Position numbers and translations under genes: made by a program
Notes under the pieces: generated by a model
The model's input: only the letters and a program-made list of their open reading frames with translations
Databases searched by the model: none
What the model was told of the DNA's origin: nothing
Origin: Chitinophaga pinensis
Lineage (GTDB): Bacteria > Bacteroidota > Bacteroidia > Chitinophagales > Chitinophagaceae
Assembly (NCBI GenBank): GCA_943333125.1
Contig: CALQSB010000007.1
Span: forward strand, 1 to 64,000
Length of the DNA stretch: 64,000 bases
Reading direction: 5' to 3'
In this document: piece after piece, positions 13,383 to 52,933 of the stretch
Layout: every line of letters begins with the position of its first letter
Position numbering within the stretch: position 1 is the first letter of the stretch

Positions 13383-13383
13383 T

Positions 13384-13767: not shown

Positions 13768-13883
13768 TTTATTTATTAATTCGACTAAGTATAATTACGT
13801 AGTAATTTATTCTTTTATTACTTAATTGCAATGCTAAGTTATAGAATCAAAAACCACTTTAGCTGACTATAAATAAGAAAATG

Positions 13884-25998: not shown

Positions 25999-26167
25999 TA
26001 AAAAAATAAAATTAACGACAAGATACTTTAAAAAACAAAGCTATTCGCTACAAACATCAGAAGAAGGATAATGATTTAATCCCGGCAACAGCCAATTTCT
26101 TTCCAAATTATTGCCATGTTTTTCTTTTCTTTGCAGTTCGGCATTCTGTTCTAAAATATTTAATAAC

Positions 26168-27223
26168 ATGAGCATCACACATTCTATTTTAATTACCGGC
26201 GGTGCAGGGTTTATTGGGTCTCATCTCACCAGATTATTTGTAACCAAATATCCCGAATATACCATTGTAAATTTAGATGAACTCACCTATGCTGGTAATC
26301 TCGAAAATCTAAGCGATATAGAAAATCAATCTAATTACACTTTTGTAAAAGGAGATATAAATGATGCCAGTTTATTAAAGTCTTTGTTTGATAAATTTCA
26401 GTTTACTGCAATCATACATTGTGCCGCAGAAAGTCATGTGGATCGTTCGATAACAGATCCTCTGGCTTTTGTAAAAACGAATGTGCTGGGAACGGTAAAT
26501 TTATTGCACGTGGCTAAAGAGTATTGGAAAAACGATATGGAGCATAAAATCTTTTATCACATTTCAACAGACGAGGTTTATGGTTCTCTTGGAAGCGAAG
26601 GGTTTTTTACCGAAGAAACTGCTTATGATCCGCGCAGCCCATACTCTGCTTCTAAAGCCTCTTCGGATCATTTTGTAAGAGCCTTTCACCATACTTACAA
26701 ATTACCGGTAAAAATTTCCAACTGCTCTAATAATTATGGGCCTTTTCATTTTCCCGAAAAATTGATTCCTCTTTGTATTCATAATATCATCAACAACAAG
26801 CCTCTTCCCATTTATGGAAAAGGAGAAAATGTAAGAGACTGGCTTTTTGTTGAAGACCATGTTCGTGCTATCGATACTATATTTCATCATGGAAAAATTG
26901 GCGAAACATATAATATTGGCGGACACAACGAGTGGACAAATATTGCTTTGGTACTGGAGCTCTGCAAACAAATAGATATTAAATTAGGCAGATCTGCTGG
27001 TACGAGCGAACAGCTGATTACTTATGTAAAAGACAGAGCCGGACACGACTTGCGTTATGCAATTGATGCTACTAAATTAAAGAATGAGTTGGGTTGGATG
27101 CCTTCCTTACAATTTGAAGAGGGGCTTTCCAAAACCATAGACTGGTATCTTTCTAATAGCGAGTGGCTGAATAATGTTACCAGCGGCGAATATCAGCAGT
27201 ATTATAAGGGGATGTACGGTTAA
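26168..27223 (+). CDS. rmlB: dTDP-glucose 4,6-dehydratase
   Basis: This 351-residue SDR enzyme converts dTDP-glucose to dTDP-4-keto-6-deoxyglucose. It has the NAD-binding GGAGFIGSH (11-19), STDEVYG (133-139) with catalytic Asp and Glu, and YSASK with Tyr159 and Lys163. The frame is open from 26111 but the added residues are Cys-rich and non-homologous, so the ATG at 26168 giving SITHSILITGG is preferred. RmlA lies downstream, but rmlC and rmlD are absent from the window. Confidence 0.93.
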   Translation: MSITHSILITGGAGFIGSHLTRLFVTKYPEYTIVNLDELTYAGNLENLSDIENQSNYTFVKGDINDASLLKSLFDKFQFTAIIHCAAESHVDRSITDPLAFVKTNVLGTVNLLHVAKEYWKNDMEHKIFYHISTDEVYGSLGSEGFFTEETAYDPRSPYSASKASSDHFVRAFHHTYKLPVKISNCSNNYGPFHFPEKLIPLCIHNIINNKPLPIYGKGENVRDWLFVEDHVRAIDTIFHHGKIGETYNIGGHNEWTNIALVLELCKQIDIKLGRSAGTSEQLITYVKDRAGHDLRYAIDATKLKNELGWMPSLQFEEGLSKTIDWYLSNSEWLNNVTSGEYQQYYKGMYG

Positions 27224-27294
27224 ATTAAAAGTCAAAATTAAAAAGTAATAAAATTGGCATTAGAAGTTTATTGTTTAAATCGCTTCTCTGCCTG

Positions 27295-27306
27295 CCTGCC
27301 GGTAGG
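27295..27306. repeat. GC-rich palindrome CCTGCC-GGTAGG
   Basis: This short palindrome with one G-T wobble is extended upstream by CTGCCTG. It resembles the CCTGCCTGCCGGCAGGCAGG-type palindromic repeats scattered in Bacteroidota intergenic DNA. It lies between rmlB and rmlA. Number of copies in the genome is not visible here. Confidence 0.5.
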
Positions 27307-27328
27307 GTTTAAGGTTAAATTTCTATCA

Positions 27329-27413
27329 CCAAACCCCAAACGCCAAACAACAAACCCCAAACGCCAAACAACAAACAACAAACCCCAAACAATAAACCCC
27401 AAACCCCAAACAT
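27329..27413. repeat. Imperfect AAACCCC/AAACGCC/AAACAAC tandem repeat before rmlA
   Basis: About 85 bases are built almost only from A and C in units of six to eight (AAACCCC, AAACGCC, AAACAAC, AAACAAT). On the minus strand this gives G-runs of GGGG separated by TTT, which could form a G-quadruplex. It ends four bases before the rmlA ATG, so it forms most of its leader. Confidence 0.7.
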
Positions 27414-27417
27414 CTTT

Positions 27418-28278
27418 ATGAAAGGAATAATACTCGCAGGTGGTTCCGGAACAAGGTTGTATCCAATCACAATGGGAATCAGTAAACAGCTAATGCCTAT
27501 TTATGATAAGCCCATGATTTATTATCCTTTAAGCACATTAATGCTGGCGGGAATCAACGAAATACTAATTATCACCACTCCCGAAGATCAGTCGCAATTT
27601 ATGAGATTATTAGGCGACGGCTCGCAATGGGGTTGTAAAATTTCTTATGAGAAACAGGAAAAGCCTAATGGGTTGGCTCAGGCTTTTGTGATTGGTGAAA
27701 AATTTATTGGAAACGATAGCGTAGCATTGGTACTGGGTGATAATATTTTTTATGGCAGTGGGTTTAGTAAAATGTTACAGGACGCAGCCAATCCTAATGG
27801 AGCGGTGATTTTTGCCTATCCGGTTAGTGATCCCGAAAGATATGGTGTTGTGGAGTTTGATAAAGAACATCATGCAATAAGCATTGAAGAAAAACCAACA
27901 GTTCCTAAAAGTAATTTCGCCGTTCCCGGATTATATTTTTACAATAATGATGTGGTTCGTATAGCCAAGGAAATAAAACCCAGTCCAAGAGGAGAATATG
28001 AAATTACAGACGTAAACAGAGTTTATATGGAAGGCAGATCACTTAAAGTAGTTACGCTTAACAGAGGATTTGCCTGGCTGGATACAGGAACATTTGATTC
28101 GTTGCACGATGCCAGTGAGTATGTAAGGGTTATTGAAAAAAGACAGGGATTAAAAGTGGGCTGCCCCGAGGAAATAGCCTGGAGAATGGGGTTTATAAGT
28201 AAAAATCAGTTGGAAATTTTAGCCGAACAGCTTAAAAAAAGTGGCTATGGTGAATATTTATATAAAATTTCCAAATAA
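27418..28278 (+). CDS. rmlA: Glucose-1-phosphate thymidylyltransferase
   Basis: This 286-residue enzyme makes dTDP-glucose from dTTP and glucose-1-phosphate. It has the nucleotidyl-binding [13 protein letters not shown] (6-18), [19 protein letters not shown] and the VLGDNIFYG loop with the metal aspartate. Length and motifs match RmlA of the classical type. It lies 194 bases after rmlB behind a repeat-rich spacer and is followed after five bases by the acetyltransferase. Confidence 0.94.
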
Positions 28279-28283
28279 TAATC

Positions 28284-28856
28284 ATGCAATATTTTGCACA
28301 CCATACTGCTGTAATTGATGAAAATTGTTCTATCGGTGATGGAACAAAGATCTGGCACTTCTCACATATCATGACAGGTGCAGTTGTTGGAAGATTTTGC
28401 AATCTTGGACAAAATGTTGTCATCGAAAGAAAAGTAGTTTTAGGAGAAAATGTGCGAATCCAAAATAATGTAAGTGTATATGAAGGTGTGATCTGTGAAG
28501 ATGATGTTTTTATAGGACCCAGCGTAGTATTAACTAATGTTGTTAATCCAAGAAGTGCGGTTAGCAGGAAGCATGAATTTAAAACAACCCTTATTAAAAG
28601 AGGAGCTACAATTGGCGCCAACGCTACAATAATTTGCGGAAATGAAATCGGTGAATTTGCATTTATCGGTGCAGGAGCAGTAGTAACAAAATCGGTGGCC
28701 CCTTATGCTTTAATTATAGGTAATCCCGGAATTCAAAAAGGATGGATGAGCGAGTATGGACATAAACTTGAATTCGATATCACTAATACAGCTGTATGTT
28801 ATGAAAGCGGACAGATTTATTTACTGGAAAATAATTTCGTAAAACGCATCAGCTGA
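28284..28856 (+). CDS. Left-handed beta-helix sugar N-acyltransferase (WlbB/QdtC-like)
   Basis: This 190-residue protein is built from hexapeptide repeats (IGDGTKIW, VVLGENV, IGPSVVLTNV, IGANATIICG) forming a left-handed beta-helix, with SRKHEFKTTLIKRGATIGANATI-type text of the amino-sugar acetyltransferases WlbB/QdtC/FdtC. These acetylate an amino group on a nucleotide sugar. It starts five bases after rmlA, so a dTDP-amino-sugar is the inferred substrate, but the aminotransferase is not in the window. Confidence 0.82.
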   Translation: MQYFAHHTAVIDENCSIGDGTKIWHFSHIMTGAVVGRFCNLGQNVVIERKVVLGENVRIQNNVSVYEGVICEDDVFIGPSVVLTNVVNPRSAVSRKHEFKTTLIKRGATIGANATIICGNEIGEFAFIGAGAVVTKSVAPYALIIGNPGIQKGWMSEYGHKLEFDITNTAVCYESGQIYLLENNFVKRIS

Positions 28857-28934
28857 TTTCAAAAAAATCTGATTTATTATCATTTACCGTTTAGGTTTTT
28901 TATTTGTTAATTTAGCAACGCAAATCAATAAAGT

Positions 28935-30848
28935 ATGTGCGGTATCGCAGGATTCATAGATTTTAATCAAACTTCTTCCGAAAAAATATTACAGGCAGCT
29001 ACCGATATCTTATCGCACAGGGGTCCCGATGGCAGCGGTTATCACTTTGTTCAGCATAATAATTATCAAATAGGACTTGGTCATCGTAGATTATCCATTA
29101 TAGATTTAAGTACAGCGGCTGCTCAGCCAATGAAACACAATCAGTTTACCATTGTATTTAATGGAGAAATTTATAATTACGAAGAAATAAAAAAACTACT
29201 GCTGACTAAAGGCCATCTATTTGAAACACATTCAGACACAGAAGTCATTTTACATGCCTGGGAAGAATGGGGTATTGATATGGTTCATCATTTTATTGGA
29301 ATGTTTGCTTTTGTTATCCACGACTCCATTAAGCATGAATTAATTTGTTTCAGAGATCGCGCTGGTGTAAAACCATTTTATTATTATTGGGAAGAAGGGC
29401 TGTTTTTATTTGCCTCAGAATTAAAGAGTTTTCATCAACATCCCCAATTCAATAAGCGTATAAATTTACAGGCCATTCATCAATTTTTTCAGTATGGATA
29501 TATCATGGCGCCATTAGCCATATTTGAAAATACTTTTAAATTAGTACCTGGCCACTTATTAAAATTTTCAGTTTCCAAACAAGAATTTTCAATTGAAAAA
29601 TACTGGGATGTTTATGATGCGTATAACAAACCAAAAATAGATATCTCCGAAACAGAGGCTACAACTAAGCTTCATGATTTATTGTTATCTGCCTGTAATT
29701 ACAGAATGGTGGCAGATGTTCCGGTGGGCGTTTTTCTGAGTGGAGGATACGACAGTACTGCAGTAACCGCTTTGATACAATCTCAGCAAAAAGAAAAATT
29801 AAAAACATTCACCATCGGGTTTCATGAAGAAGATCACAATGAAGCCAAATTTGCTTACCAGGTTGCTAAACATTTAAATACAGATCATACAGAACATTAC
29901 TGTACAAAAAACGAAGCACAGGAAATTATACCTAAAATTCCCTTTTATTGCGATGAACCATTTGGAGATTCCTCTATAATTCCAACAACACTGGTAAGTA
30001 TTCTTGCCAAAAAGCAGGTAACCGTTGCCTTGAGTGCAGACGCGGGCGATGAAGTATTTGGCGGCTATAGCAAATATCCTCATGCATTAAAATTTCTGAG
30101 AAATATAAATTTATTTCCGGCAGCCATCAGAAAGCCGGCCTCACATTTATTAAATTATATTCCCGATAACTTCTTGATTGCATTAACAGGAAATAAAGCT
30201 GTTTCTATAAAAAAAGAAAGATTTGCCGAACTGCTTCAATTAAAAAAACCCAGTAGTGTAGATTTAATGGATGTGTTGTTTTCGCAGTTATATACCAATA
30301 AACAAATCGATACTTTAATCAGTAAAAAAGTTAGTCAACCCGGATCTTTTTTTAATTCCGAAAATTTATTAAACGAAAACATTGGCTCACTCGACAGGAT
30401 GCTCGCCGTTGATTATAAAACGTATATGCCAGACGATATCCTTGCAAAGGTAGACCGTGCAGGGATGAGTACTTCGCTTGAAGGAAGAGAACCTTTGCTT
30501 GATCATCGTATTATTGAATTTGTAGCTGGCTTACCAGAATCTTATAAAATAAAATCAGGCGATAAAAAATATTTATTGAAAAAAATTGTACATCAATATG
30601 TTCCAAAAGAAATGATGGATCGCCCTAAAATGGGTTTTGGTGTTCCTGTTTTTGATTGGTTAAGAAATGATTTAAAATATTATGCAGAAGAATATATGAG
30701 TAAAGAGGCCTTTTCGAGGCATGGACTTTTCAATCCTTCCGGAGTAGATCAAATTATGAAACAGTTTTATAAAGGAGATCGAAATTATAATAGTTTGTTC
30801 TGGTACTTATTAATGTTTCAAATGTGGTATAAAGAATGGATGGAGTAA
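28935..30848 (+). CDS. Glutamine-hydrolysing asparagine-synthase-type amidotransferase (1)
   Basis: This 637-residue protein has an N-terminal class II glutaminase domain with Cys2 (MCGIAGF), GHRRLSIID and FNGEIYN, and a C-terminal synthetase domain with the P-loop SGGYDST and SADAGDEVFGGY. All residues expected for ATP-dependent amide transfer are present. AsnB paralogues in polysaccharide loci are thought to amidate sugar acids rather than aspartate. A hairpin with a T-run lies 150 bases past the stop. It is paired with a second copy at 32207. Confidence 0.92.
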   Translation: MCGIAGFIDFNQTSSEKILQAATDILSHRGPDGSGYHFVQHNNYQIGLGHRRLSIIDLSTAAAQPMKHNQFTIVFNGEIYNYEEIKKLLLTKGHLFETHSDTEVILHAWEEWGIDMVHHFIGMFAFVIHDSIKHELICFRDRAGVKPFYYYWEEGLFLFASELKSFHQHPQFNKRINLQAIHQFFQYGYIMAPLAIFENTFKLVPGHLLKFSVSKQEFSIEKYWDVYDAYNKPKIDISETEATTKLHDLLLSACNYRMVADVPVGVFLSGGYDSTAVTALIQSQQKEKLKTFTIGFHEEDHNEAKFAYQVAKHLNTDHTEHYCTKNEAQEIIPKIPFYCDEPFGDSSIIPTTLVSILAKKQVTVALSADAGDEVFGGYSKYPHALKFLRNINLFPAAIRKPASHLLNYIPDNFLIALTGNKAVSIKKERFAELLQLKKPSSVDLMDVLFSQLYTNKQIDTLISKKVSQPGSFFNSENLLNENIGSLDRMLAVDYKTYMPDDILAKVDRAGMSTSLEGREPLLDHRIIEFVAGLPESYKIKSGDKKYLLKKIVHQYVPKEMMDRPKMGFGVPVFDWLRNDLKYYAEEYMSKEAFSRHGLFNPSGVDQIMKQFYKGDRNYNSLFWYLLMFQMWYKEWME

Positions 30849-30999
30849 ATAAATTCAACGCTAATAAAACTAAACAATTGATTTTCAATTAAAATAGAAT
30901 TTTTTCAAGCCAGCATAGGAAATTTACGGTCTATTTCATAAAATCTACTCTTTTTCCCTTCCCAAGGGCTAATAGGCTGCACTTAAAGCAATATCAGGC

Positions 31000-31018
31000 A
31001 ACGGTTTCCGTTTTTTTT
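31000..31018 (+). terminator. Rho-independent terminator candidate
   Basis: The hairpin AACGG-TTT-CCGTT (31000-31004 with 31008-31012) runs directly into eight T residues, 150 bases after the first amidotransferase gene. The stem is short, so it may be moderate. Confidence 0.5.
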
Positions 31019-31055
31019 ATACCATTAATCCAATAATAATTACTAAACCTAACCT

Positions 31056-32057
31056 ATGCAGAAAATAATTGCAGTCATTGTATCACACAACCGCCAGGCG
31101 TTGCTGGTCGAATGTATCGAGGCGTTAAGAAATCAAACTCAAAAACCAGATGCCATTTTAGTAGTTAATAATGGAAGTTCAGATTATACCACCGTTTGGC
31201 TCGATAAACAATCAGATATCATACAACTTTACCAGGATAATTTGGGTTCGGCAGGCGGTTACAATACCGGCATCAGCTGGGCTTATCAAAATGGATATAC
31301 CTGGATATGGTGTATGGATGATGACGGACATCCTAAAAATGATGCACTGGAAATTCTGATGAATAACAGAGGCTTTGGAATTGAATTATTAAACTGTTCC
31401 GTTATAAATAAAACAGATAGAAAAACATTTGTTTCTAAAACAAAAAAATACAAATGTATAGATGAGGTTAAAGAAAAAGTGATTGAAGGAGTTGGTCATC
31501 CTTTTAATGGCACAATGATACATCGTTCTATTATCGAAAAAGTAGGACTGCCACAATCCAATCTATTTTACTGGGGCGAAGAGCGTGAATATTTTTATAG
31601 AATAGTCAATCAATATAAAATTCCGGCGAAAACAATCACGCACAGCATACAATATCATCCTGAACTTTCTCATGCACATAAAAAAGAGTGGGATTATAAA
31701 ACTTCATGGAAAATGTATTTCTATGTGAGAAACAGATATAAAGTGATGCAATCAAAGTATTCGAATAAATTTCTGGCAACCATACATTACGCATATTTCA
31801 CACTTGCTTTTATTAAATCCATATTTATATTTCAGCAAAAAGACAAAATCAGAAAAGTATTTTTTACTTTCTGGCCTGTTATTGATTCTTTAAAAAATAA
31901 TTTCAGCGATACGCCTGAAACGATTCAGGATCGAATGAATAAACAATACAAAATGCCAATAAGTTCTTTTGTCTTCTATCCCTTCAAAAAAGCCATAGTT
32001 TCGATGTTTGTTCCTCGCTACACAGAAGGATCCGGAGCTACTGCAGTGGAATTATAA
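31056..32057 (+). CDS. GT2-family glycosyltransferase
   Basis: This 333-residue GT-A enzyme opens IAVIVSHNRQALLVECIEAL and shows the nucleotide-binding VNNGSSDYT, DNLGSAGGYNTG and the metal-binding DDDG (about 91-94). The text resembles GlfT2/rhamnosyl-type enzymes. The C-terminal third (from WKMYFYVRNRY) is amphipathic and may contact the membrane. It is followed by a strong terminator, which divides the locus into two transcripts. Confidence 0.88.
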   Translation: MQKIIAVIVSHNRQALLVECIEALRNQTQKPDAILVVNNGSSDYTTVWLDKQSDIIQLYQDNLGSAGGYNTGISWAYQNGYTWIWCMDDDGHPKNDALEILMNNRGFGIELLNCSVINKTDRKTFVSKTKKYKCIDEVKEKVIEGVGHPFNGTMIHRSIIEKVGLPQSNLFYWGEEREYFYRIVNQYKIPAKTITHSIQYHPELSHAHKKEWDYKTSWKMYFYVRNRYKVMQSKYSNKFLATIHYAYFTLAFIKSIFIFQQKDKIRKVFFTFWPVIDSLKNNFSDTPETIQDRMNKQYKMPISSFVFYPFKKAIVSMFVPRYTEGSGATAVEL

Positions 32058-32078
32058 AATAGAGAAAAAAAATTGACG

Positions 32079-32105
32079 AGTCCGGGTTTTATCCGGACTT
32101 TTTTT
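32079..32105 (+). terminator. Rho-independent terminator after the GT2 gene
   Basis: A perfect 7-bp stem (AGTCCGG with CCGGACT, 32079-32085 and 32093-32099) sits on a GTTTTAT loop and is followed by a T run. Confidence 0.85.
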
Positions 32106-32154
32106 ATTTCAGCCAATTTTTTATTTTTAAAAAATTTATCAGCAACAAGTGAAT

Positions 32155-32162
32155 TATATTTG
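32155..32162 (+). promoter_or_regulatory. Candidate -7 element TATATTTG
   Basis: TATATTTG fits TAnnTTTG and lies 44 bases before the second amidotransferase ATG, just after a terminator. The -33 side is not clear. Confidence 0.38.
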
Positions 32163-32206
32163 CAGTCAGTATAAAACAATTTTAGTTTTTATTTAACCAG
32201 TTATTC

Positions 32207-34048
32207 ATGTGTGGAATTGCGGGATCAGTAAATTTCAAATTATCATATGATATTATAAAAGGTACAATGCTGCATCGAGGTCCCGATGAGCAGAACGCTA
32301 TCATAGCAGACAATGTTGATTTTTTTCATTTAAGATTGTCTATTCTCGATATTTCAGGCGGAAAACAACCCATGACGCTCGAAGGCAGATATTTCATTAT
32401 TTTCAATGGCGAGATTTATAATCATAATGAGCTGAGAAAAAAATTTGATTTAAAATGTTCTACTAATTCTGATACTGAGACATTGTTATTGTTGTTTCAA
32501 AAATTTGGCGAAAAATGTCTTGATCATCTTGATGGCATGTTTGCTTTTGCGATTTATGATAATGTTGAAAAGAAAATATTTCTGGCTAGAGACAGAGCGG
32601 GAAAGAAACCATTATATATTTATAGTAAAGACGAAACGATAGTTTTTGCCAGTGAGCTTAATTGTTTAAAGGGATTACTTCCCCTGGAAATAGAACAAAA
32701 AAATATTTATCAGTACATGCGTCTTGGCGTTTTTTATAAAAATCTTACGCCGTATAAAAATGTAAATGAACTTGAACCTGGAACGTTTGCGTTTATCAAT
32801 TGCCAAACACTGGAAATAAAAAAAACAAAGTGGTGGGACATACATAATTTTTATCTTCAAAACAGCAGTGATAATTTATCTCAGGCAATTGAAAAAACAG
32901 ATCAGCTTTTAATTGAATCAGTTAAACGAAGAATTTCCTCAAGTGATCTGGAAGTTGGATGTTTTTTGAGTGGAGGAATTGACAGCGGTCTGGTAACGTC
33001 TATCGCCAGTAGTTTTACCAGTCGTTTGAAAACAATGACCGTTTCTTTTGATGGCGAATATGATGAAGCCCCATTGGCAAAATTAGTAGCCGAAAAATAC
33101 AACACAGATCATACCGAAATAAAGATTTCATTTGATCAGTTAAAAAATGATATTGAACAAATCATCAGCAATTATGGAGAACCTTTTTACGACAGTTCGG
33201 CTATTCCTTCTTTTTATGTAAGTCAGGCAGCAAAAAAAAGAGTAACTGTAATTCTGAATGGTGATGGTGCTGATGAATTGTTTGCCGGTTACCGCAGATA
33301 TGTTCCTTTTAATAAGTATGATTTCTTTAAAAAGAATTTCCTTGTAAATAATGCTGGATCTTTTTTAAAAAATATTTTACCAGCTTCTAATGACAAAAAA
33401 TCAAAGTATAATTATCTATATCGGTTATTAACTTTTGCTTCAAAAAAAGATCTGGATATTTATTTATCTGCAGGGGTAGATATTATCGAAGATTACGAAA
33501 AAAATTTGCTTGCTGACGGAGTAAATTATTTAAAAGAAATGAAAGAAGGTTTTGATCGTATTAATAATGCTCCATTATCAGGATTAAAAAAAATCATGAA
33601 TCTGGATTTCGAAAATAACTTCTCCAGTCAAATGCTCGCCAAAATAGATATAGCCACAATGAGCCATTCATTGGAAGGCAGAAGTCCTTTTTTATCAAAG
33701 GAATTATTAGCCTATGCACCAACTCTTTCGGATTCCTTAAAGATAAATGGAGTAACTACTAAATATTTATTACGCCAATTGGCTACAAAATATCTTCCTG
33801 AATCACTGATCAATCAACCTAAAAGAGGTTTTGAAATTCCTTTAAAATCATGGGTTAATGGCCAATTGAGCGATATGATTCATGATTATGTTGGCGCTCC
33901 AAATGCATTTAACAGGAATATCATTAATCCTAAATTCACAATTCAGTTATTAAATCAAAAAATAAAAATCCCTGCCGAAAAGCGGGCAAAATTATTATGG
34001 ACACTTTTTTGTCTTGAGGTATGGTACAAAAAAGTTTATCTTTCATAA
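32207..34048 (+). CDS. Glutamine-hydrolysing asparagine-synthase-type amidotransferase (2)
   Basis: This 613-residue protein has Cys2 (MCGIAGS), FNGEIYN and SDTETLL in the glutaminase domain, and the P-loop SGGIDSG and NGDGADELFAGY in the synthetase domain. It is clearly a paralogue of the gene at 28935 but only distantly alike, and it lacks the extra residues of that one. It opens a transcript with the GT4 gene 11 bases downstream. The acceptor may be a sugar acid, by analogy with other glycan loci. Confidence 0.91.
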   Translation: MCGIAGSVNFKLSYDIIKGTMLHRGPDEQNAIIADNVDFFHLRLSILDISGGKQPMTLEGRYFIIFNGEIYNHNELRKKFDLKCSTNSDTETLLLLFQKFGEKCLDHLDGMFAFAIYDNVEKKIFLARDRAGKKPLYIYSKDETIVFASELNCLKGLLPLEIEQKNIYQYMRLGVFYKNLTPYKNVNELEPGTFAFINCQTLEIKKTKWWDIHNFYLQNSSDNLSQAIEKTDQLLIESVKRRISSSDLEVGCFLSGGIDSGLVTSIASSFTSRLKTMTVSFDGEYDEAPLAKLVAEKYNTDHTEIKISFDQLKNDIEQIISNYGEPFYDSSAIPSFYVSQAAKKRVTVILNGDGADELFAGYRRYVPFNKYDFFKKNFLVNNAGSFLKNILPASNDKKSKYNYLYRLLTFASKKDLDIYLSAGVDIIEDYEKNLLADGVNYLKEMKEGFDRINNAPLSGLKKIMNLDFENNFSSQMLAKIDIATMSHSLEGRSPFLSKELLAYAPTLSDSLKINGVTTKYLLRQLATKYLPESLINQPKRGFEIPLKSWVNGQLSDMIHDYVGAPNAFNRNIINPKFTIQLLNQKIKIPAEKRAKLLWTLFCLEVWYKKVYLS

Positions 34049-34059
34049 TAGATTAATGC

Positions 34060-35187
34060 ATGAAAAAGAATATTGCCATAATTGAAAATAATATAGTTTC
34101 TACAAACACCATGCGACAAAAGCTCACTTTGGAATTAATGAGCAGGGGCTACAATGTGGTTGTATTAACAACAGGTAACAATAAAGACCTTCAAATTGCA
34201 AAAGATAACGGCATTAAAGTAATTGACATAAAAAGTAGCAATATAAATCCTGTTCATATTTTTCTTTATCTGAAAAATATCAAAAAGGCATTAAAGGAAA
34301 ACAATGCAGAAGTTTGTCTGACCTTTACCATGCGTCCTGCCATTTGGGGAAATTTCATCACATCAAAATTAGAAATACCAACAATAACAAACATCACCGG
34401 AGTGGGTCCATTGTTTTCAAGTAAAAATCCTGCTTATATAGTAGCAAGGCTGATGTATAAATTTGTTCTTAAAAATACGGAAAGAATATTTTTTCAGAAC
34501 AATGATGATATGAATCTTTTTCTTACCAATAACTTTATTGCAAAAGAAAAGGCTGCCCTCATTCCAGGTTCAGGAGTAGATCATCAATATTTCAAGCCAC
34601 TTATAAAGTCGGAGAAAAACTCATCATTCATATTTCTTTTTATTGGAAGATTATTAAAAGACAAAGGAGTAATAGAATTTGTAGAAGCGGCAAGAGCATT
34701 CAAAAAAATGAATCTTGATGCAGAATTCAGAATTGTTGGTCCTTTATGGAATCAAAATCTTAAAAAAAATACGATAACCAAGGATGAACTTAATTCATGG
34801 ATAACTGAAAAAATCATCACATATCTTGGATCTGCTGATGATGTTAGACCACATATTGCAAATGCCGATTGCCTTGTACTGCCCTCTTATCGAGAAGGTA
34901 CAAGTAATGTGCTGCTGGAAGCCTCAAGTATGGAACGGCCTTCAATAACTTGTAACACTACAGGGTGTAGAGAAATTATTGAAGATGGTATCACAGGCTT
35001 ATTGTGCAATGTAGCTGACACTAATCATCTGATTGAAAAAATGAAAGAAATGATTTCGTTTTCCCCTGAAAAAAGAATGGAGATGGGAAAAAATGCCAGA
35101 AAAAAAGTGGTAAAAGAATTTGATAAACAATTTGTTATTGATACATATATGGATACCATAAAGTCAATCACGAGTTCAAAAAATTAA
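34060..35187 (+). CDS. GT4-family glycosyltransferase (3)
   Basis: This 375-residue GT-B enzyme shows NITGVGPLF, a GSGVD turn, FIGRLLKDKGVIEFVEAA and EGTSNVLLEASSMERPS. It resembles capsule/O-antigen glycosyltransferases that open with an N-acetylhexosamine or fucosamine step, but I cannot assign a sugar. It follows the second amidotransferase after 11 bases and is the last recognisable polysaccharide gene. Confidence 0.88.
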   Translation: MKKNIAIIENNIVSTNTMRQKLTLELMSRGYNVVVLTTGNNKDLQIAKDNGIKVIDIKSSNINPVHIFLYLKNIKKALKENNAEVCLTFTMRPAIWGNFITSKLEIPTITNITGVGPLFSSKNPAYIVARLMYKFVLKNTERIFFQNNDDMNLFLTNNFIAKEKAALIPGSGVDHQYFKPLIKSEKNSSFIFLFIGRLLKDKGVIEFVEAARAFKKMNLDAEFRIVGPLWNQNLKKNTITKDELNSWITEKIITYLGSADDVRPHIANADCLVLPSYREGTSNVLLEASSMERPSITCNTTGCREIIEDGITGLLCNVADTNHLIEKMKEMISFSPEKRMEMGKNARKKVVKEFDKQFVIDTYMDTIKSITSSKN

Positions 35188-35348: not shown

Positions 35349-36164
35349 ATGAACGAATTATTCTCACTCAAAAATAAAGTTATTGTTGTAACAGGTGGAT
35401 CGGGTGTTTTGGGAAAGTCTTTTGTAAATGGAATTGCAGCAGCCGGCGGATCTGTTGTTATTATCGGAAGAGATATAAATAAAGCAAATGCAATTGCAGA
35501 TGAAATAAATAAAAATGGCGGAAAGGCTTTACCTATTTCCGCTGATGTGCTTAGTGAAGAAAAAATGATTAATGCAAGAGAAAAAATACTCTCATCATTT
35601 GGTAAAATAAACGGACTTGTAAATGCGGCAGGTGGCAATGTGCCAGAAGGCGTGTTGTCAAATGACGCTGATATTTTTTCGTTGAACATTGAAGGAATGA
35701 AAAACGCAATGGAGCTTAATGTTTGGGGAACGATTATACCTACTCAGATCTTCGGTTCTGTTATGGCAAAGAAAGATGGAGGAAGTATCGTTAATATTTC
35801 TTCTGTAAGTTCAAAACGTGCACTTACCAAAGTATTAGGGTACAGTATGGGAAAAGCCTCGATTGATACGTATAATCAATGGTTTGCTGTTGAATTGGCA
35901 AATAGATTCGGCGACAATATCAGAATGAATGCGATAACACCTGGATTTTTTCTTACCGAACAAAATAGAAATCTCCTAACCAATCCCGATGGCTCACTTA
36001 CCGAAAGAGGTAATTTAATAATAAAAAATACACCATTCAAACGCTTTGGAAATCCTGATGAATTGATCGGAGCTTTAATTTATCTGTTAAGCGATGCTTC
36101 GAAATTTGTAACAGGAACACAGTTAGGCGTAGACGGCGGATTTAATGCTTTTAGTGGCGTATAA
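35349..36164 (+). CDS. SDR-family D-mannonate oxidoreductase (fructuronate reductase)
   Basis: This 271-residue SDR protein has [10 protein letters not shown] (15-24), NAAGGN (92-97), catalytic Ser152/153 and Tyr165-x-x-x-Lys169 (YSMGK), and PGF after the active site. The role follows from context: it is 19 bases before UxuA and the same transcript carries UxaC. SDR-type fructuronate reductases replace UxuB in some bacteria. The specific substrate is therefore inferred from neighbours. Confidence 0.8.
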
Positions 36165-36183
36165 AAAAAGAACGAATCTTATT

Positions 36184-37362
36184 ATGATACAAATGCAGCA
36201 AACGATGCGCTGGTTTGGGCCTAGTGACCCGGTGAGTTTATGGGATATCAGACAGGCAGGATGTACAGGCGTGGTAAGTGCCCTACACCATATTCCTAAT
36301 GGAGAAGTATGGACGGTTAATGAAATCAGCAAACACAAATTGTTAATCGAAAAAGCCGATATGGTATGGGCAGTAGCAGAAAGTCTTCCTGTACATGAAG
36401 GGATAAAAACACAATCAGGAGATTTTAAAAAGCATATCGAAAATTACAAACAATCTTTAAAAAATCTTAGTGCTTGCGGAATAAATATTGTTGCTTATAA
36501 TTTCATGCCGGTTATGGACTGGACAAGAACCAATCTTGCTTATATGTTGGCCGACAAGTCTCTGGCCTTATTATTTGTAAGAGATGAAGTTATTGTTTTC
36601 GATTTATTTATCCTGAAAAGAAAAAATGCGAAAGCTGATTATTCAAAAGAAGAAATAGAAAGAGCCACCAAACGATATGGTGAAATGAATGAAAAGGAAT
36701 TAACAACGCTCAAGCAAAATATAATAAAAGGTTTGCCGGGAAGCGAAGAAAGTTTTACTATCGAAGCGTTTCAAAAAGCGCTTGATTCTTATGAAGAAAT
36801 CAATGCCGAAAAACTTCGAAGCCATTTGATTTATTTTTTAAATGAAATCATTCCTGTTGCTGATGAATACAAGGTGAAGATGGTTATTCATCCCGACGAT
36901 CCTCCTTTTTCATTGCTGGGACTTCCGCGTGTAGTGTCTACTGCAAATGATATTCAAAAATTAATTGAGGCAGTTCCTTCTTTAAACAATGGACTTTGTT
37001 TTTGTACAGGATCGTTTGGGGTAAGATCAGACAATGATTTGCCTGCAATGATAAAGCAGTTTGGAAGTCGCATAAATTTTATTCATCTTAGAAATACAAC
37101 CAGAAATAAATTCGGTGATTTCTTTGAAGATAACCATCTTGATGGTGATACGGATATGTATGCCATAGTGAAAGAAATAATAAAGTTAATGAGTATAAGA
37201 AAAACTTCAATTCCTATGCGCCCCGATCACGGTCATCAGATGCTGGATGATTTGAAAAAAATAACCAATCCAGGTTATTCAGCAATTGGCAGATTAAAAG
37301 GACTTGCAGAACTGAGAGGATTAGAATTAGGCATAATCAGAAATCTATCTGAAGAAAAATAA
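36184..37362 (+). CDS. uxuA: Mannonate dehydratase
   Basis: This 392-residue TIM-barrel enzyme converts D-mannonate to 2-keto-3-deoxygluconate. It has [12 protein letters not shown] at the start, [24 protein letters not shown] and MRPDHGH, the metal and substrate motifs of UxuA. The frame is open from 36145, but that would overlap the preceding gene; the ATG at 36184 matches the family start. It lies between the SDR enzyme and UxaC in a hexuronate operon. Confidence 0.94.
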
Positions 37363-37393
37363 TTTTAAAAAAATTAGTTTAATAAAAGAGATC

Positions 37394-38809
37394 ATGCAAA
37401 ATAAACAAGGAACCATTATTAATGACGACTTTTTGCTTCAAAATAAAACCTCAATTATTTTATATAATGACTATGTAAAAAAAATGCCCATAGTTGATTA
37501 TCATAATCATCTTCCTCCTGATCAGATAGCTTCTAACAAAAAATTTAATTCTCTCACAGAAATTTGGCTGAAAGGCGATCACTATAAATGGAGAGCAATG
37601 CGCGCCTTGGGTGTTAATGAAAAATACATTACAGGAAAAGACAGCAGTGATTTAGAAAAATTTATGGCATGGGCTACATGTTTTCCTGAAACCATTCGAA
37701 ATCCTTTATTTCACTGGTCGCAACTGGAATTGAAAAATTCATTCGGTATCAATGAATATTTAAATGAATCATCAGCAAAAAAAATATTTGAACATTGCAA
37801 TGAATTATTACAAAATGATTTGCTATCAACAAAGGGAATCTTAAAAAGTTATCATGTAGAAATGCTTGGAACTACAGATGATCCCTGTGATAATCTTGAT
37901 TATCATAAAAAATTAAAAGAGGATGAATTTGAAATAAAAGTTTTGCCTTCATTCAGGCCTGATAAAATATTTAACATAGCCAATCGCAATGTGTTTATTG
38001 ATTATCTCAATCAAATAGAAAATGCCAGCGGTATAAGCATTAAAACATTTCCTCAGTTGATTGCTGCCTTGGAAATGAGAATGGATTACTTTCATTTGCA
38101 CGGCTGTCGTATCGCAGATCACGGACTTCATAAAATGCCAGATCATTTTGAATTCAACAATGCGCTGGAAAAAGAATTCGAGAAATTTATTCAGGATTCA
38201 AATGCAATTTTCTCGGATCCCGAAAGATTTATTGGTGCTGTATTAATTGAATTATGCAAGATGTATCATAAAAGAGATTGGGTACAGCAATTTCATTTAG
38301 GCGCAATAAGAAATAATAATTCAAGATTATTAAATACAATTGGCCCTGATGCCGGTGTTGATTCTATTGGAGATTTTAAACAGACTTTTGCTTTGTCTAA
38401 TTTCTTAAATGCTTTGGATAAAGAAAATAAACTAACCAAAACAATACTTTATAATATCAATCCGGCCGACAACGAAACCTTTGCTTCGATGTGCTTAAAT
38501 TTTAATGATGGTCTTATAAAAGGAAAAATTCAATATGGCTCTGGATGGTGGTTTTTAGATCAGAAAGACGGAATCGAAAAGCAATTAAATGCCTTATCCA
38601 ATATGGGTATAATTAGCAATTTTGTTGGCATGCTTACAGACAGCAGAAGTTTTCTTTCTTTTTCCCGTCATGAATATTTCAGAAGAATATTGTGTAATTT
38701 ATTTGGAGATGAAATGGAAAAAGGGTTATTGCCCAATGATATAAAATGGATAGGAGGTATTTTACAGAATATTTGCTATAATAATGCGAAAACTTATTTT
38801 AATCTTTAA
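37394..38809 (+). CDS. uxaC: Glucuronate/galacturonate isomerase
   Basis: This 471-residue enzyme isomerises D-glucuronate to D-fructuronate (and galacturonate to tagaturonate). It carries the amidohydrolase-fold metal motif DYHNHLPP (His37, His39), plus TTDDPCDNL, FHLGAIRNNNSR and SFLSFSRHEYFRR. Length is typical. It sits 31 bases after uxuA. No UxaA/UxaB or KdgK/KdgA genes are in the window, so later steps must be elsewhere. Confidence 0.94.
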   Translation: MQNKQGTIINDDFLLQNKTSIILYNDYVKKMPIVDYHNHLPPDQIASNKKFNSLTEIWLKGDHYKWRAMRALGVNEKYITGKDSSDLEKFMAWATCFPETIRNPLFHWSQLELKNSFGINEYLNESSAKKIFEHCNELLQNDLLSTKGILKSYHVEMLGTTDDPCDNLDYHKKLKEDEFEIKVLPSFRPDKIFNIANRNVFIDYLNQIENASGISIKTFPQLIAALEMRMDYFHLHGCRIADHGLHKMPDHFEFNNALEKEFEKFIQDSNAIFSDPERFIGAVLIELCKMYHKRDWVQQFHLGAIRNNNSRLLNTIGPDAGVDSIGDFKQTFALSNFLNALDKENKLTKTILYNINPADNETFASMCLNFNDGLIKGKIQYGSGWWFLDQKDGIEKQLNALSNMGIISNFVGMLTDSRSFLSFSRHEYFRRILCNLFGDEMEKGLLPNDIKWIGGILQNICYNNAKTYFNL

Positions 38810-38855
38810 AAATAAATTTTAATTAATCAAACCAATACTTTAAATAATCTGAGAC

Positions 38856-40424
38856 ATGATGAAAGTTCTAAAAGTTATATTTCTTTTTTTGATTTGCTTT
38901 TATGTAAATCAAGCTGCTGCTCAGAAAAGATTTAAAGATGAAATATTCACTGAAATAGATTCTGTAGTTAACGTTCAGTATGGGGAAGCAACGAATATTA
39001 ATGGCGATAAAGAAAAACTACTGCTGGATGTTATTTATCCGCCCAAAACGGATACTTTAAAAAACAGGCCCTTGCTTATATTTATCCATGGTGGCGGGTT
39101 TCAAAGTAATTCTAAAAATGGATTGTACAATTCAACGGTTTGTAATTCATTCTCCAAAAGAGGTTATGTAACAGCAACTATTGATTATCGCTTGGGTGTT
39201 GAAAAATCAGTAACTGAAGATGGAAAAGAAGTTAGAACAAACAAAGATTTTGCAGAGGCTTTGTATCGTGCGCAACAGGATGGAAAAGCAGCCATTCGTT
39301 TTTTCAGAAAACACGCTGATGAATATGGAATTGATACTTCATTAATTTTCATAACCGGAAGTTCAGCTGGCTCAATGACCTGCCTGGCAATTGCGTACAT
39401 GAATGAAAATGAAATTCCTGTTGAAGTCAATCAGAAAAAATGGGGAACTATCGAGGGCAACAGCGGTAATGAAGGGTACTCTTCAAAAGTAAAAGGGGTA
39501 ATAAATGCCTGGGGAGCAATCATTGATTACAAATGGATTCAAAATGGAGATGTGCCTTTGTTTAATACCGCTGGAACAGATGATAAAAAAGTTCCCACGG
39601 ACAGCTCTTTTGATTACCATGGATTTAAATACGGATCTTATTTTTTATTTCAACATTGTTTATCACTCGGAATTGCTACAGGATGGCGGCCTTTTTATGG
39701 TAGCGGTCATACGCTAAATAGTAATCGTTTAAAACAAGACAGTTGCGTGCAGTCTATGTCCGACTGGTTATATACTCAATTAAAAATCAACAAAGGCAAA
39801 AAAGATGAAGGTGTATTTAAGTGGGTAAAAGATATCAACCGTTTTGACAGTTTGAATGCTATTGAAAAATATTCAGACAGCGCCATCATGTTTATCGGCA
39901 GTTCTTATATCAGAATGTGGAAGAATATCAGAGAAGATTTAAATTACAAGGAAATCATTCATCGTGGTTTTGGTGGTTCCAATTTAAGAGATGTAGCTTA
40001 TTATATAAAGCGCATTGTATACCCACATCATCCCAAAGCCATTTTTATTTATGTAGGAAATGACATTGGTGCAACAGAAAGGGATAAAGCGCCAGATCAG
40101 GTGCTGGAGTTGTATAAATATGTTGTAAAAATTATTCGTGATAAATACCCTGCAACACCAATAACCTGGCTGGCGATTTCGCCAAGTGAAAAAAGATGGA
40201 CTGTTTGGGATAAAATTCAAGAAACCAATAATCTGGTAAAAGCATTTACAGCATCACAACCGAATTTATTTTACATTGATGCAGGACAAAAATATTTAGG
40301 TACTGACGGAAAACCTGTTGCCACATTTTATCGCGATGATAAGATGCATTACAACGAAGAAGGATATAAGTTGTGGGGCAGGTCAATCGATGCAGAAGTA
40401 AAAACAATTTTAAACAAAAAATAA
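38856..40424 (+). CDS. Secreted bifunctional protein: alpha/beta-hydrolase esterase plus SGNH hydrolase
   Basis: This 522-residue exported protein starts with a signal peptide (cleavage near AAAQ). Residues about 40-305 are an alpha/beta hydrolase with HGGG (78-81), nucleophile elbow GSSAG (Ser170), Asp242/243 and His285 (YGSGHT). Residues about 325-522 are an SGNH/GDSL hydrolase with FIGSSYIR (Ser349/350), GFGGSN, GND (401-403) and DKMH (Asp495, His498). It lies 46 bases after uxaC, so removal of ester groups from uronate-containing polysaccharide is inferred. Two adjacent ATGs can start it. Confidence 0.82.
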   Translation: MMKVLKVIFLFLICFYVNQAAAQKRFKDEIFTEIDSVVNVQYGEATNINGDKEKLLLDVIYPPKTDTLKNRPLLIFIHGGGFQSNSKNGLYNSTVCNSFSKRGYVTATIDYRLGVEKSVTEDGKEVRTNKDFAEALYRAQQDGKAAIRFFRKHADEYGIDTSLIFITGSSAGSMTCLAIAYMNENEIPVEVNQKKWGTIEGNSGNEGYSSKVKGVINAWGAIIDYKWIQNGDVPLFNTAGTDDKKVPTDSSFDYHGFKYGSYFLFQHCLSLGIATGWRPFYGSGHTLNSNRLKQDSCVQSMSDWLYTQLKINKGKKDEGVFKWVKDINRFDSLNAIEKYSDSAIMFIGSSYIRMWKNIREDLNYKEIIHRGFGGSNLRDVAYYIKRIVYPHHPKAIFIYVGNDIGATERDKAPDQVLELYKYVVKIIRDKYPATPITWLAISPSEKRWTVWDKIQETNNLVKAFTASQPNLFYIDAGQKYLGTDGKPVATFYRDDKMHYNEEGYKLWGRSIDAEVKTILNKK

Positions 40425-40727: not shown

Positions 40728-42251
40728 TTATTCTTTTATTTTATTATCATTTTTATCTAAAAAAATCATACCGATAAGAAAACAAATTGATCCTACTATT
40801 ATCGGGTACCACAATCCATTTAAATACCAGTCAGGATTATTATTTGATTTTGCTGTGGTAACCAGATATGTAGCAACGGTTGGAAGTAAGCCTCCAAAAA
40901 TTCCATTTCCAATATGATAAGGAAGCGACATAGACGTATATCTGATTTTTGCGGGAAACATTTCAACCAGAAATGCTGCAATAGGTCCATAAACCATAGT
41001 AACGAATAGCACCTGTATAAATATCAGAAAAACTAAAGTCCAGTAATTTTTATTGTTTAATGTAATTGATTTCTTTACGTCATTACAGGGTTTGATAATA
41101 TTATTTTTGAATACCGTATCTTTTTTGATCAGTTCCATTTTAGTTCCATCATCAAAAAATATTTTAGTTGTAGTTGTTGAAATAGAATCAAAAGGACGTT
41201 TATTAATTGCACTCATTTTAATGACAACGTTTTTTTGTTTTGTTATTTCTGTTTTATGGGCACAATCAATTGTTGTAAACATTTCAGTGTAAATAGGCCG
41301 ATAGGCGACCACTGCCAATAAAATACCAAGCATCATTATTTTCTTTCTTCCAATTTTATCTGATAAGCCACCAAACACAATAAAAAAAGGTGTAGCCAGT
41401 AATAAACCTATTGCCATTATGGTATCTGTTTGCTGGCTAACCACTCCACAGACTTTTCCAATAAAACTCATAGCATAAAACTGACTTGTGTACCAAATAA
41501 CCCCTTGACCCATTGTAGCGCCGAACAAAGCAAGTAACACGAACTTAAAATTATACTTGTTTCCAAAGCTTTCTTTCAATGGATTTTTAGATATCGTTCC
41601 TTCAGATTTTATTTTTGTATAAACAGGAGATTCTTCCATGTTCTTCCGGATAAAGAAAGAAATAATTACCATAATTATAGAAATCCAGAATGGGATACGC
41701 CATCCCCAGTCTTCAAATCTTTCAACGCCTAAAGTATTTCGTATAATTAATATTACTGAAAGCGATAAAAAAAGGCCAACCGTTGCCGTTGTTTGAATCC
41801 AAGAAGTCCAGTATCCTCTTTCTTTTGTGGGAGAATGTTCGGCAACATAAGTTGCGGCTCCTCCATATTCGCCACCTAAAGCAAGCCCTTGTAAAAGCCG
41901 AAGTATTAATACAAGCAATGGAGCCATAAAGCCAATGGTACTATAATCGGGAATACAACCAATTAAAAAAGTAGATCCGCCCATTAATAATAGCGTAACC
42001 ATAAAAGTATATCTCCTGCCAATCAAGTCTCCTAATCTGCCAAAAAACAAAGCACCAAAAGGACGCACCACAAATCCTGCAGCAAAAGTCGCTAAAGTAG
42101 AAAGAAAGGCTGCGGTTGGATTAGATTGAGGAAAAAACTTAGTCGAAATTACAACAGCGAGACTACCGAAAATATAAAAATCATACCATTCGATTAATGT
42201 TCCTAAAGACGAGGCAATAATAATCGATCGAATACCTTTATTTCTTTTCAT
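40728..42251 (-). CDS. MFS transporter, metabolite:H+ symporter (ProP/ShiA-like) with large loop
   Basis: This 507-residue protein has twelve probable membrane helices and the family motif GRLGDLIGRRYTF between helices 2 and 3, repeated as GGLSDKIGRKKIM between 8 and 9. Text FVVRPFGALFFGR and YGGAATYVAEHSP match the metabolite:H+ symporter family. Residues about 310-385 (FTTIDCAHKTEI to SITLNNKNYW) form an unusually long hydrophilic loop after helix 8. It is convergent with the uronate genes; whether it carries uronates or a related acid is not known. Confidence 0.85.
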   Translation of the reverse strand: MKRNKGIRSIIIASSLGTLIEWYDFYIFGSLAVVISTKFFPQSNPTAAFLSTLATFAAGFVVRPFGALFFGRLGDLIGRRYTFMVTLLLMGGSTFLIGCIPDYSTIGFMAPLLVLILRLLQGLALGGEYGGAATYVAEHSPTKERGYWTSWIQTTATVGLFLSLSVILIIRNTLGVERFEDWGWRIPFWISIIMVIISFFIRKNMEESPVYTKIKSEGTISKNPLKESFGNKYNFKFVLLALFGATMGQGVIWYTSQFYAMSFIGKVCGVVSQQTDTIMAIGLLLATPFFIVFGGLSDKIGRKKIMMLGILLAVVAYRPIYTEMFTTIDCAHKTEITKQKNVVIKMSAINKRPFDSISTTTTKIFFDDGTKMELIKKDTVFKNNIIKPCNDVKKSITLNNKNYWTLVFLIFIQVLFVTMVYGPIAAFLVEMFPAKIRYTSMSLPYHIGNGIFGGLLPTVATYLVTTAKSNNNPDWYLNGLWYPIIVGSICFLIGMIFLDKNDNKIKE

Positions 42252-49999: not shown

Positions 50000-50770
50000 T
50001 TATTTTGTTTTGAATTTCCCAATTGCTTTTTTTGTAAAATCACTAAGAACAAGCCTTCCGCTAATTGCAGCCCGCTCATTTAATAACGTGTCCCAGTGTT
50101 CAGTTCCTTTCCAGAAAGCTTTTTTAAGTTCACTCATTGCTTCTGGATTGGATTGAGAAAGTACAAGAGCAAGTTTATTAACGGCTTCATCCACTTTCTC
50201 AAGGGTATCAAATACTTCCGAAAACAAACCATTTGATTGTGCCCAGGAACTATTCCTCCATGAGGTTGCATCAATAGACAATGCAGAAAATGCACTCGTG
50301 CCTATTTTTCTTTCTACAGCCGGGCCCACAACAAAAGGACCAATACCAACAGCAAGCTCACTGAGTTTTACATCAGCAGTATTTAAAGCAATTGAATAAT
50401 CAGCTGCTGCGGCAATTCCTACACCACCGCCTACACATCTTCCCTGAATACGGGCAATAACAAATTTATTATTTACTCTTATTGCGTTAATCACATTTGC
50501 AAAACCACTAAAAAATTTCAAACCTGCTTCTTCATTGTTAATTTGTAACAATTCATCAAAAGAAGCACCTGCACAAAATGCTTTTTCCCCCTCGCTTTTT
50601 ATAACAATAACAGAGCATTCATTATTCTTTCCTGCCGCATGAATTTCTAAAGCAAGTTGTTCTAATATTTTTCCGGGAAGCGAATTGCTCTGTGGATGAA
50701 AAAATACTATTGTGGTAATTCCATTATCCGTTGTGGACAACACATGTCCTTCTGTTGTTTGTGCTATCAT
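50000..50770 (-). CDS. Enoyl-CoA hydratase/isomerase family protein
   Basis: This 256-residue crotonase-fold protein has the CoA-binding and oxyanion text KAFCAGASFDELL and IQGRCVGGGVGIAAAADY, then LSELAVGIGPFVVGP. It follows paaZ after 64 bases, so a role in phenylacetate or other aromatic CoA-ester degradation is likely (PaaF/PaaG-type). Only one of the catalytic glutamates is obvious, so it may be an isomerase rather than a hydratase. Confidence 0.82.
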   Translation of the reverse strand: MIAQTTEGHVLSTTDNGITTIVFFHPQSNSLPGKILEQLALEIHAAGKNNECSVIVIKSEGEKAFCAGASFDELLQINNEEAGLKFFSGFANVINAIRVNNKFVIARIQGRCVGGGVGIAAAADYSIALNTADVKLSELAVGIGPFVVGPAVERKIGTSAFSALSIDATSWRNSSWAQSNGLFSEVFDTLEKVDEAVNKLALVLSQSNPEAMSELKKAFWKGTEHWDTLLNERAAISGRLVLSDFTKKAIGKFKTK

Positions 50771-50834
50771 AATTATGGTACTTTAATTCTCAGGTGAAAA
50801 ATAGTATAGAAAATTTCACTTGATATATTATTTA

Positions 50835-52910: not shown

Positions 52911-52925
52911 AAAATTATTTTGATA

Positions 52926-52933
52926 CAAAGGTA
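52926..52933 (-). promoter_or_regulatory. Candidate -7 element TACCTTTG of paaZ
   Basis: On the minus strand TACCTTTG matches TAnnTTTG, 15 bases before the paaZ ATG. This supports the shorter start. No -33 TTTG is visible. Confidence 0.38.

Follow-up and report, generated by a model that had tools for sequence, protein, structure and literature searches.

The last gene of a hexuronate operon in Chitinophaga pinensis (GenBank assembly GCA_943333125.1, contig CALQSB010000007.1, positions 1 to 64,000 of the forward strand; these 64,000 nucleotides are the window referred to below) encodes a protein in which an alpha/beta-hydrolase domain is followed by an SGNH hydrolase domain. We consider it somewhat more likely than not that the biological role of this esterase is the removal of malonyl groups (malonic acid half-esters) from a glucuronate-containing glycan or glycoside. 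Malonyl is proposed as the acyl group because the partners with which the esterase gene clusters in related bacteria are malonate genes. A sequence-only reading of the window had foreseen de-esterification of a uronate-containing polysaccharide, which stands, and had favored acetyl or methyl/glucuronoyl groups, which the recurring malonate neighbors of the relatives do not bear out; it missed the malonate link because these genes lie outside the window, in the relatives.

A scan of genome contigs gave 79 loci from the best 80 matches, and neighborhoods were clustered from the open reading frames (ORFs) of 52 sources, namely the window, L058, L060, L061, L062 and L072-L118; L059 and L063 were omitted because L099 and L095 stem from the same contigs. 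The esterase cluster is represented in 51 of the 52 sources, the ORF caller having returned no esterase in L087, and counts over loci are not independent, owing to near-relatives such as L104-L107 and L096-L098 with L112. Many of the records are presumably freshwater metagenome-assembled genomes, going by isolate names alone. A MatB-like malonyl-CoA synthetase (hereafter the ligase) occurs with the esterase in 31 of the 52 sources. Its gene is immediately upstream of the esterase gene and co-directional with it in 28 of these 31, with an overlap of 4 bases in 20 loci and of 8 bases in one; the remaining three (L062, L088 and L089) have the order esterase, major facilitator superfamily (MFS) carrier, ligase. 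MadM was found in 16 sources, MadL in 14, and a protein resembling malonyl-CoA decarboxylase (MCD) in 6. An MFS carrier of about 390 residues (MFS386) replaces MadLM in 12 loci (L060, L062, L074-L076, L078, L082, L084, L088, L089, L091 and L099). MadM and MFS386 never occur in one locus, and the ligase is present in all 28 loci that have either. The only ligase loci with neither carrier (L061, L094 and L109) all break off at the esterase, where the contig ends; in L061, a GntP permease is encoded upstream. Neither of two MFS386 proteins tested scored above the cut-off of any NCBIfam carrier, and we regard the family, from its gene context, as a candidate malonate transporter. In L077, a LigB-type extradiol dioxygenase-family protein is encoded after MadM (12904-13791, plus strand).

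As a control, we examined L119-L150, 32 loci (485 kb) in which the esterase match is weaker or fragmentary. The ligase was found in L121 alone, and L121 opens with a piece of this same esterase, truncated by the contig end. Apart from L121 and L119, the 30 other control loci match the esterase at 37% identity or less. A census of 195 sampled genomes of the window's family gave a similar picture. The full-length two-domain esterase was matched in seven of them, and the ligase (E <= 1e-60) in 14, comprising six of the seven genomes with the esterase versus eight of the 188 without it (Fisher P = 2.9e-7, indicative only, as the genomes are related). The figure of eight is if anything an overcount, because the match in G090 lacks the motif and that in G121 lacks the serine. 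MCD scored above cut-off in 3/7 esterase genomes versus 1/188 others, and MadM was found in 1/7 versus 1/188. A separate sample of 296 genomes from the phylum was also searched, and the only full-length esterases among the matches listed were those of the window and G087.

The assignment of these neighbors to malonate metabolism draws on several comparisons. The best solved relatives of the L058 ligase are malonyl-CoA synthetases (3nyq, 4fuq). PMC6122825 describes Arg299, His209 and Ser277 of Rhodopseudomonas palustris MatB as group-specific and, by way of the Streptomyces coelicolor structure, as contacting or lining the methylmalonyl-group site. The equivalents of Arg299 and Ser277 are present in 31/31 neighbor ligases, and that of His209 in all 30 rows with letters at the position. 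These group-specific residues are consistent with a MatB-like enzyme; full membership in the family is not claimed, because the four ligases tested fall below the NCBIfam cut-off. One MadL (137.7 versus 113.45 bits, TIGR00807) and two MadM proteins (331.3 and 326.4 versus 236.3 bits, TIGR00808) pass equivalog cut-offs, the others having been assigned by clustering. In three tested MCD-like neighbors of 190-196 residues, the malonyl-CoA decarboxylase domain scores 74.7-83.8 bits against a cut-off of 23.2. Malonate modules also occur apart from the esterase, as ligase-MadL-MadM in G025 and MFS-ligase-MCD in G073, and G078 has an MFS-ligase-MCD module unlinked to its esterase; their composition supports a putative role of the carriers in malonate transport. 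Release of feruloyl or other hydroxycinnamate groups had been considered as the reason for the ligase. This idea was dropped because the ligase best matches malonyl-CoA synthetases (256.7 bits, versus 207.7 for the feruloyl-CoA synthetase 8wev) and because MadLM and MCD appeared beside it.

The sugar component of the proposed substrate is suggested by the other neighbors. Hexuronate genes recur among the 52 sources (UxuA in 17, a short-chain dehydrogenase/reductase (SDR) in 12, UxaC in 11), as do genes for glycan breakdown and uptake (GH50-like 18, GH3 13, SusD 11, SusC 9). In some relatives, the esterase adjoins genes for GH50-like, GH3 and GH2 glycoside hydrolases, a SASA-type esterase and SusC/SusD, and L105 and L106 also have a GH29-like protein and a sulfatase. 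The GH50-like protein matches 5t3b (profile, 347 bits; Foldseek, 8.2e-37); BpGH50 is not named in PMC5849685. Taken together, these neighbors point to a glucuronate-containing glycan. In the Ignavibacteria loci L115-L117, a homolog with the alpha/beta domain only is followed by GH50-like and GH3 genes, with no malonate genes, an arrangement that is possibly an older form of the cluster. A second locus in the window's own genome (L184, G000:C5:6001-26000) encodes SusC, SusD, a BD-FAE-type esterase with a strong match (236.5 bits), a chondroitinase-B-family protein (PF14592), a sulfatase, 2-keto-3-deoxygluconate (KDG) kinase, Eda and an MFS protein. Its KDG kinase is 93% identical to that of L110, and its MFS protein resembles the carrier beside Eda in relatives. 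With KDG kinase and Eda on this contig, glucuronate catabolism through 2-keto-3-deoxy-6-phosphogluconate can be completed.

The window protein is a real, conserved two-domain esterase, predicted to act on carbohydrates, and sequence and predicted fold place it in the BD-FAE and SGNH families. Both Pfam gathering cut-offs are passed (BD-FAE, PF20434, 82.2 versus 26.8 bits, covering profile positions 3-141 of 215; Lipase_GDSL_2, PF13472, 40.8 versus 32.9 bits), and the AlphaFold model is confident, with a pTM of 0.89. By VIA-align, the alpha/beta domain (residues ~30-312) superimposes on Est2 of Thermogutta (5ao9/7bfr) and on BD-FAE (6tkx, 6xyc) with Z scores of 26.6-27.3 and root-mean-square deviations of 2.4-2.7 over 230-238 residues, and the SGNH domain (residues ~310-520) superimposes on 2hsj, sialate O-acetylesterase (6njc, 7pzg) and platelet-activating factor (PAF) acetylhydrolase with Z scores of 22-24; the top Foldseek matches include the same structural groups. 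Both catalytic sets are complete, as the sequence-only reading had said, the alpha/beta triad being accompanied by the oxyanion motif HGGG at residues 78-81. Of the two serines it had offered as SGNH nucleophile, 349 and 350, the second is the one that aligns. SGNH block I reads GSS, not the literal GDS, in 34/34 rows including the window, and is a motif variant in which the nucleophile is kept.

All eleven checked residues (78-80, 170, 243, 285, 350, 374, 402, 495 and 498) are kept in 31 of 34 two-domain proteins, the window protein included. The exceptions are L081, in which His78 is changed, L095, whose reading frame stops short of the last SGNH block, and L100, which has lost the alpha/beta triad. 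Loss of one catalytic set in homologs, set out beforehand as a refuting observation, thus occurs but is rare. Another contig of the L100 isolate (L118) carries a contig-cut second copy of the esterase. The protein looks exported, judging by eye from a signal-peptide-like start, and to that extent the earlier call of a secreted enzyme holds; in an alignment of 27 sequences (A2), Q23 is invariant and A22 is conserved in at least 90%. Lys244, beside the catalytic Asp, is present in 29/29 ligase-linked alpha/beta rows versus 21/69 others, and also in ligase-free relatives (L100 was set aside from the ligase group, and L001, L072, L081, L095, L110, L111 and duplicate loci were in neither group). 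This lysine could bind the malonyl carboxylate, an idea that we did not use as support.

Features of the hexuronate operon, its terminal esterase and the adjoining carrier gene in the window
Feature	Coordinates	Strand	Basis
SDR, D-mannonate (fructuronate) oxidoreductase, 271 aa	35349..36164	+	NCBIfam NF006132, 332.9 bits versus cut-off 281
UxuA mannonate dehydratase	36184..37362 (listed ORF start 36145)	+	TIGR00695, 527.8 bits versus cut-off 199.55
UxaC glucuronate isomerase, 471 aa	37394..38809	+	NF002794, 572.8 bits versus cut-off 387
Two-domain esterase, 522 aa, candidate malonyl esterase	38856..40424	+	Pfam BD-FAE and Lipase_GDSL_2; model pLDDT 90.2 (mean)
Signal-peptide-like segment, residues 1-22, ending AAA before Q23	38856..38921	+	By eye
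BD-FAE-like alpha/beta-hydrolase domain, residues ~31-312; Ser170, Asp243, His285	38946..39791	+	VIA-align, residue alignment
SGNH hydrolase domain, residues ~317-519; Ser350, Gly374, Asn402, Asp495, His498	39804..40412	+	VIA-align, residue alignment
MHS-type MFS symporter (metabolite/H+ symporter-like)	40728..42251	-	Best NCBIfam TIGR00883, 360.7 bits, under cut-off 443.45

We propose that the esterase would act in the periplasm or outside the cell, where one domain would release malonyl by hydrolysis and a second ester would be removed by the SGNH domain. The alpha/beta domain is the likelier candidate for cutting malonyl, because six ligase loci (L102 and L104-L108) have a protein with this domain only. 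These six loci, however, encode a further protein, c17, which is 652 residues long in L106 and matches SGNH weakly (32.0 bits versus a cut-off of 32.9), and L100 keeps ligase and MadLM despite its triad loss, so that the assignment between domains is tentative. Malonate would then be imported by MadLM or the MFS carrier and activated to malonyl-CoA by the ligase. Glycosidases, such as the GH50-like, GH3 and GH2 enzymes of some relatives, may free glucuronate, which UxaC, the SDR and UxuA would convert to KDG. In the window lineage, with malonate genes not found, the enzyme would only unmask the sugar, the malonate being left unused or passed on.

The window operon is probably a stripped-down version of the locus in L073, the nearest relative with a full malonate set, whose esterase is 80% identical to that of the window. 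L073 has the order GH50-like piece (cut at the locus edge), SDR, GH2 with malectin, SASA-type esterase, UxuA, UxaC, ligase and esterase, followed by MadL, MadM, the MCD-like protein, an MHS carrier, a 1013-residue protein and the Omp85 gene that also flanks the window operon, where the order is SDR, UxuA, UxaC, esterase, MHS, Omp85 and TamB. L072, 94-95% identical to the window, has the window-like arrangement minus MHS. In the tree, L072 is the sister of the window and the next to join is L073 (100/96), in a clade that is mostly ligase-bearing (19 of 23 rows). Given this nesting, loss of the malonate genes in the window lineage appears likelier than their gain in L073. Explaining the distribution of the ligase across the entire tree takes five changes, of which three are imposed by branches with good support. 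A tblastn search of the window with the L073 ligase, MadL, MadM and MCD proteins gave no trace of these genes (E <= 0.01). A GH50-like profile (A3) had no match in the window genome, an empty result that proves little.

Several observations weigh against malonyl removal as the role of the esterase. The window genome, 99.95% complete, has no MadM or MCD at E <= 0.001 and lacks a ligase match at E <= 1e-60; it encodes three AMP-binding proteins, all without the ERYGMTE motif. The ligase is absent from 21 of the 52 sources, some of them contig-cut, including close relatives (L072, L081, L095, L110 and L111), two-domain loci of Emticicia, Runella, Spirosoma and Saprospiraceae type (L090, L092, L093, L096-L098 and L112) and the three Ignavibacteria loci; it is likewise missing from the control locus L119, contig-cut, whose esterase is 57% identical. 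In L100 (1763-3172), the alpha/beta domain is shortened and its triad gone, the SGNH residues are intact, and the ligase and MadLM are still adjacent. The four ligases tested against the NCBIfam malonyl-CoA synthase model PRK07514 score 361.9-473.5 bits, under the cut-off of 558. No title of a solved homolog among the matches listed names malonyl-esterase activity, and no malonyl esterase or malonylated polysaccharide appears among the matches listed in the open-licence PMC literature.

The foremost alternative is an acetyl or feruloyl xylan esterase of the BD-FAE kind joined to an SGNH acetyl esterase, acting on acetylated glucuronoxylan, with the malonate genes of the relatives incidental. 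The Pfam match and the fold match to 6tkx/6xyc (Z 26.7-26.9) would suit this explanation, as would the resemblance of the SGNH domain to sialate O-acetylesterase and PAF acetylhydrolase, and BD-FAE is reported (PMC8165983) to cleave feruloyl and acetyl esters. However, only about 24% of 238 aligned residues are identical to BD-FAE, the pairing with a malonyl-CoA synthetase and malonate carriers is left unexplained, and the selected neighbors scanned in the relatives were GH50-like, GH3, GH2 and SASA-type proteins, with no GH10 or GH43 seen among them. We regard this explanation as unlikely, but either domain may yet have acetyl or feruloyl activity.

It is more doubtful that the esterase removes some other ester and that the malonate genes are merely co-regulated with it, malonate being present in the same exudate of algae or plants. 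Malonate modules do exist without the esterase (G025, G073) or unlinked to it (G078), but in 20 of the 28 adjacent pairs, from several named taxa, the ligase and esterase genes overlap by 4 bases, a closeness that exceeds what co-regulation needs. Least probable, and in our judgment very improbable, is a methyl-ester or glucuronoyl esterase that frees uronic acid from lignin or from methyl esters. It would fit the hexuronate genes that adjoin the esterase in the window and the recurrence of UxuA, but the alcohol released would need no malonate genes, and no glucuronoyl esterase is named among the matches listed, with no CE15 model searched by name.

The removal of malonyl groups has a broader form, which we advance tentatively and with more doubt than confidence: Bacteroidota may carry dedicated demalonylation loci for glucuronate polysaccharides, in which malonyl esterases are coupled to malonate uptake and activation. 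No report of a dedicated glycan-demalonylation system with malonate uptake is among the matches listed in the open-licence PMC literature. If such loci exist, malonyl half-esters would be a common and overlooked decoration of algal or plant polysaccharides, probably of fresh water, and a malonylated uronic glycan is predicted in nature. Malonyl would then be an acyl group worth testing in studies of carbohydrate esterases, the combination of ligase, esterase and MadLM (or MFS) would be a gene signature for finding such enzymes, and the two esterase domains, the MFS protein as candidate malonate carrier and the GH50-like family would share one pathway.

The operon itself consists of four ORFs on the plus strand at 35349-40424, exactly as first reported, and SDR, UxuA and UxaC all pass curated NCBIfam cut-offs. 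The start of UxuA is more likely 36184 than 36145, because residue 17 is the first covered by the TIGR00695 match and the alignment of the L073 ortholog starts at 36184; with this start, the intergenic gaps are 19, 31 and 46 bases. Matches to a Bacteroidota promoter consensus number 5 in the window versus 6.3 expected by chance, with none ahead of the operon. The MHS symporter gene is convergent with the operon and has homologs in 4 of the 52 sources (window, L073, L081 and L114); it is absent from L072, although L072 is 95% identical to the window. The symporter is possibly a dicarboxylate carrier. Ten flanking ORFs scanned (26.1-52.9 kb) and the two ORFs adjoining the operon include no lyase or glycosidase, as had been stated, although the same genome encodes a chondroitinase-B-family protein on another contig, in the second locus on C5. 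No adjacent SusC/SusD pair, our criterion for a polysaccharide utilization locus (PUL), lies among the scanned ORFs flanking the operon, although SusC/SusD genes do occur beside the esterase in some relatives (for example, L095 and L105). Directly upstream (26111-35187, plus strand) lies a locus of surface-glycan type, with sugar nucleotide, asparagine-synthase-like and glycosyltransferase genes. Further downstream (50000-52928, minus strand), a domain scan found an enoyl-CoA hydratase gene adjoining that of an aldehyde dehydrogenase-MaoC fusion, a pairing like that in phenylacetate (paa) pathways.

Similar to the bifunctional feruloyl/acetyl xylan esterase BD-FAE (PF20434; 6TKX, 6XYC), the window esterase has an alpha/beta fold, a Ser-Asp-His triad and an apparent signal sequence, and some of its relatives share PUL-type surroundings with that enzyme. 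It differs in the low identity already noted, in its fused SGNH domain and in the malonate and hexuronate neighbors of its relatives. With the sialate O-acetylesterase of Phocaeicola vulgatus (6NJC, 7PZG) and PAF acetylhydrolase, the SGNH domain has in common the fold and the Ser, Gly, Asn and Asp-His blocks, whereas identity is about 20%, the first block is GSS rather than GDS, and the domain is fused behind an alpha/beta hydrolase. The relatives' loci share with the MatB/MatA and MadLM systems of malonate utilization the group residues of the ligase, MadL and MadM above equivalog cut-offs and, in some, an MCD-like protein; they differ in having an esterase and sugar-acid genes alongside and in the shortness of the decarboxylase-like protein, and none of these genes was found in the window genome. 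Of the hexuronate pathway UxaC-UxuA-KdgK-Eda, the window encodes UxaC, UxuA and the oxidoreductase, an SDR of the D-mannonate oxidoreductase family standing in place of the classical UxuB, and homologs of KDG kinase and Eda are encoded on contig C5.

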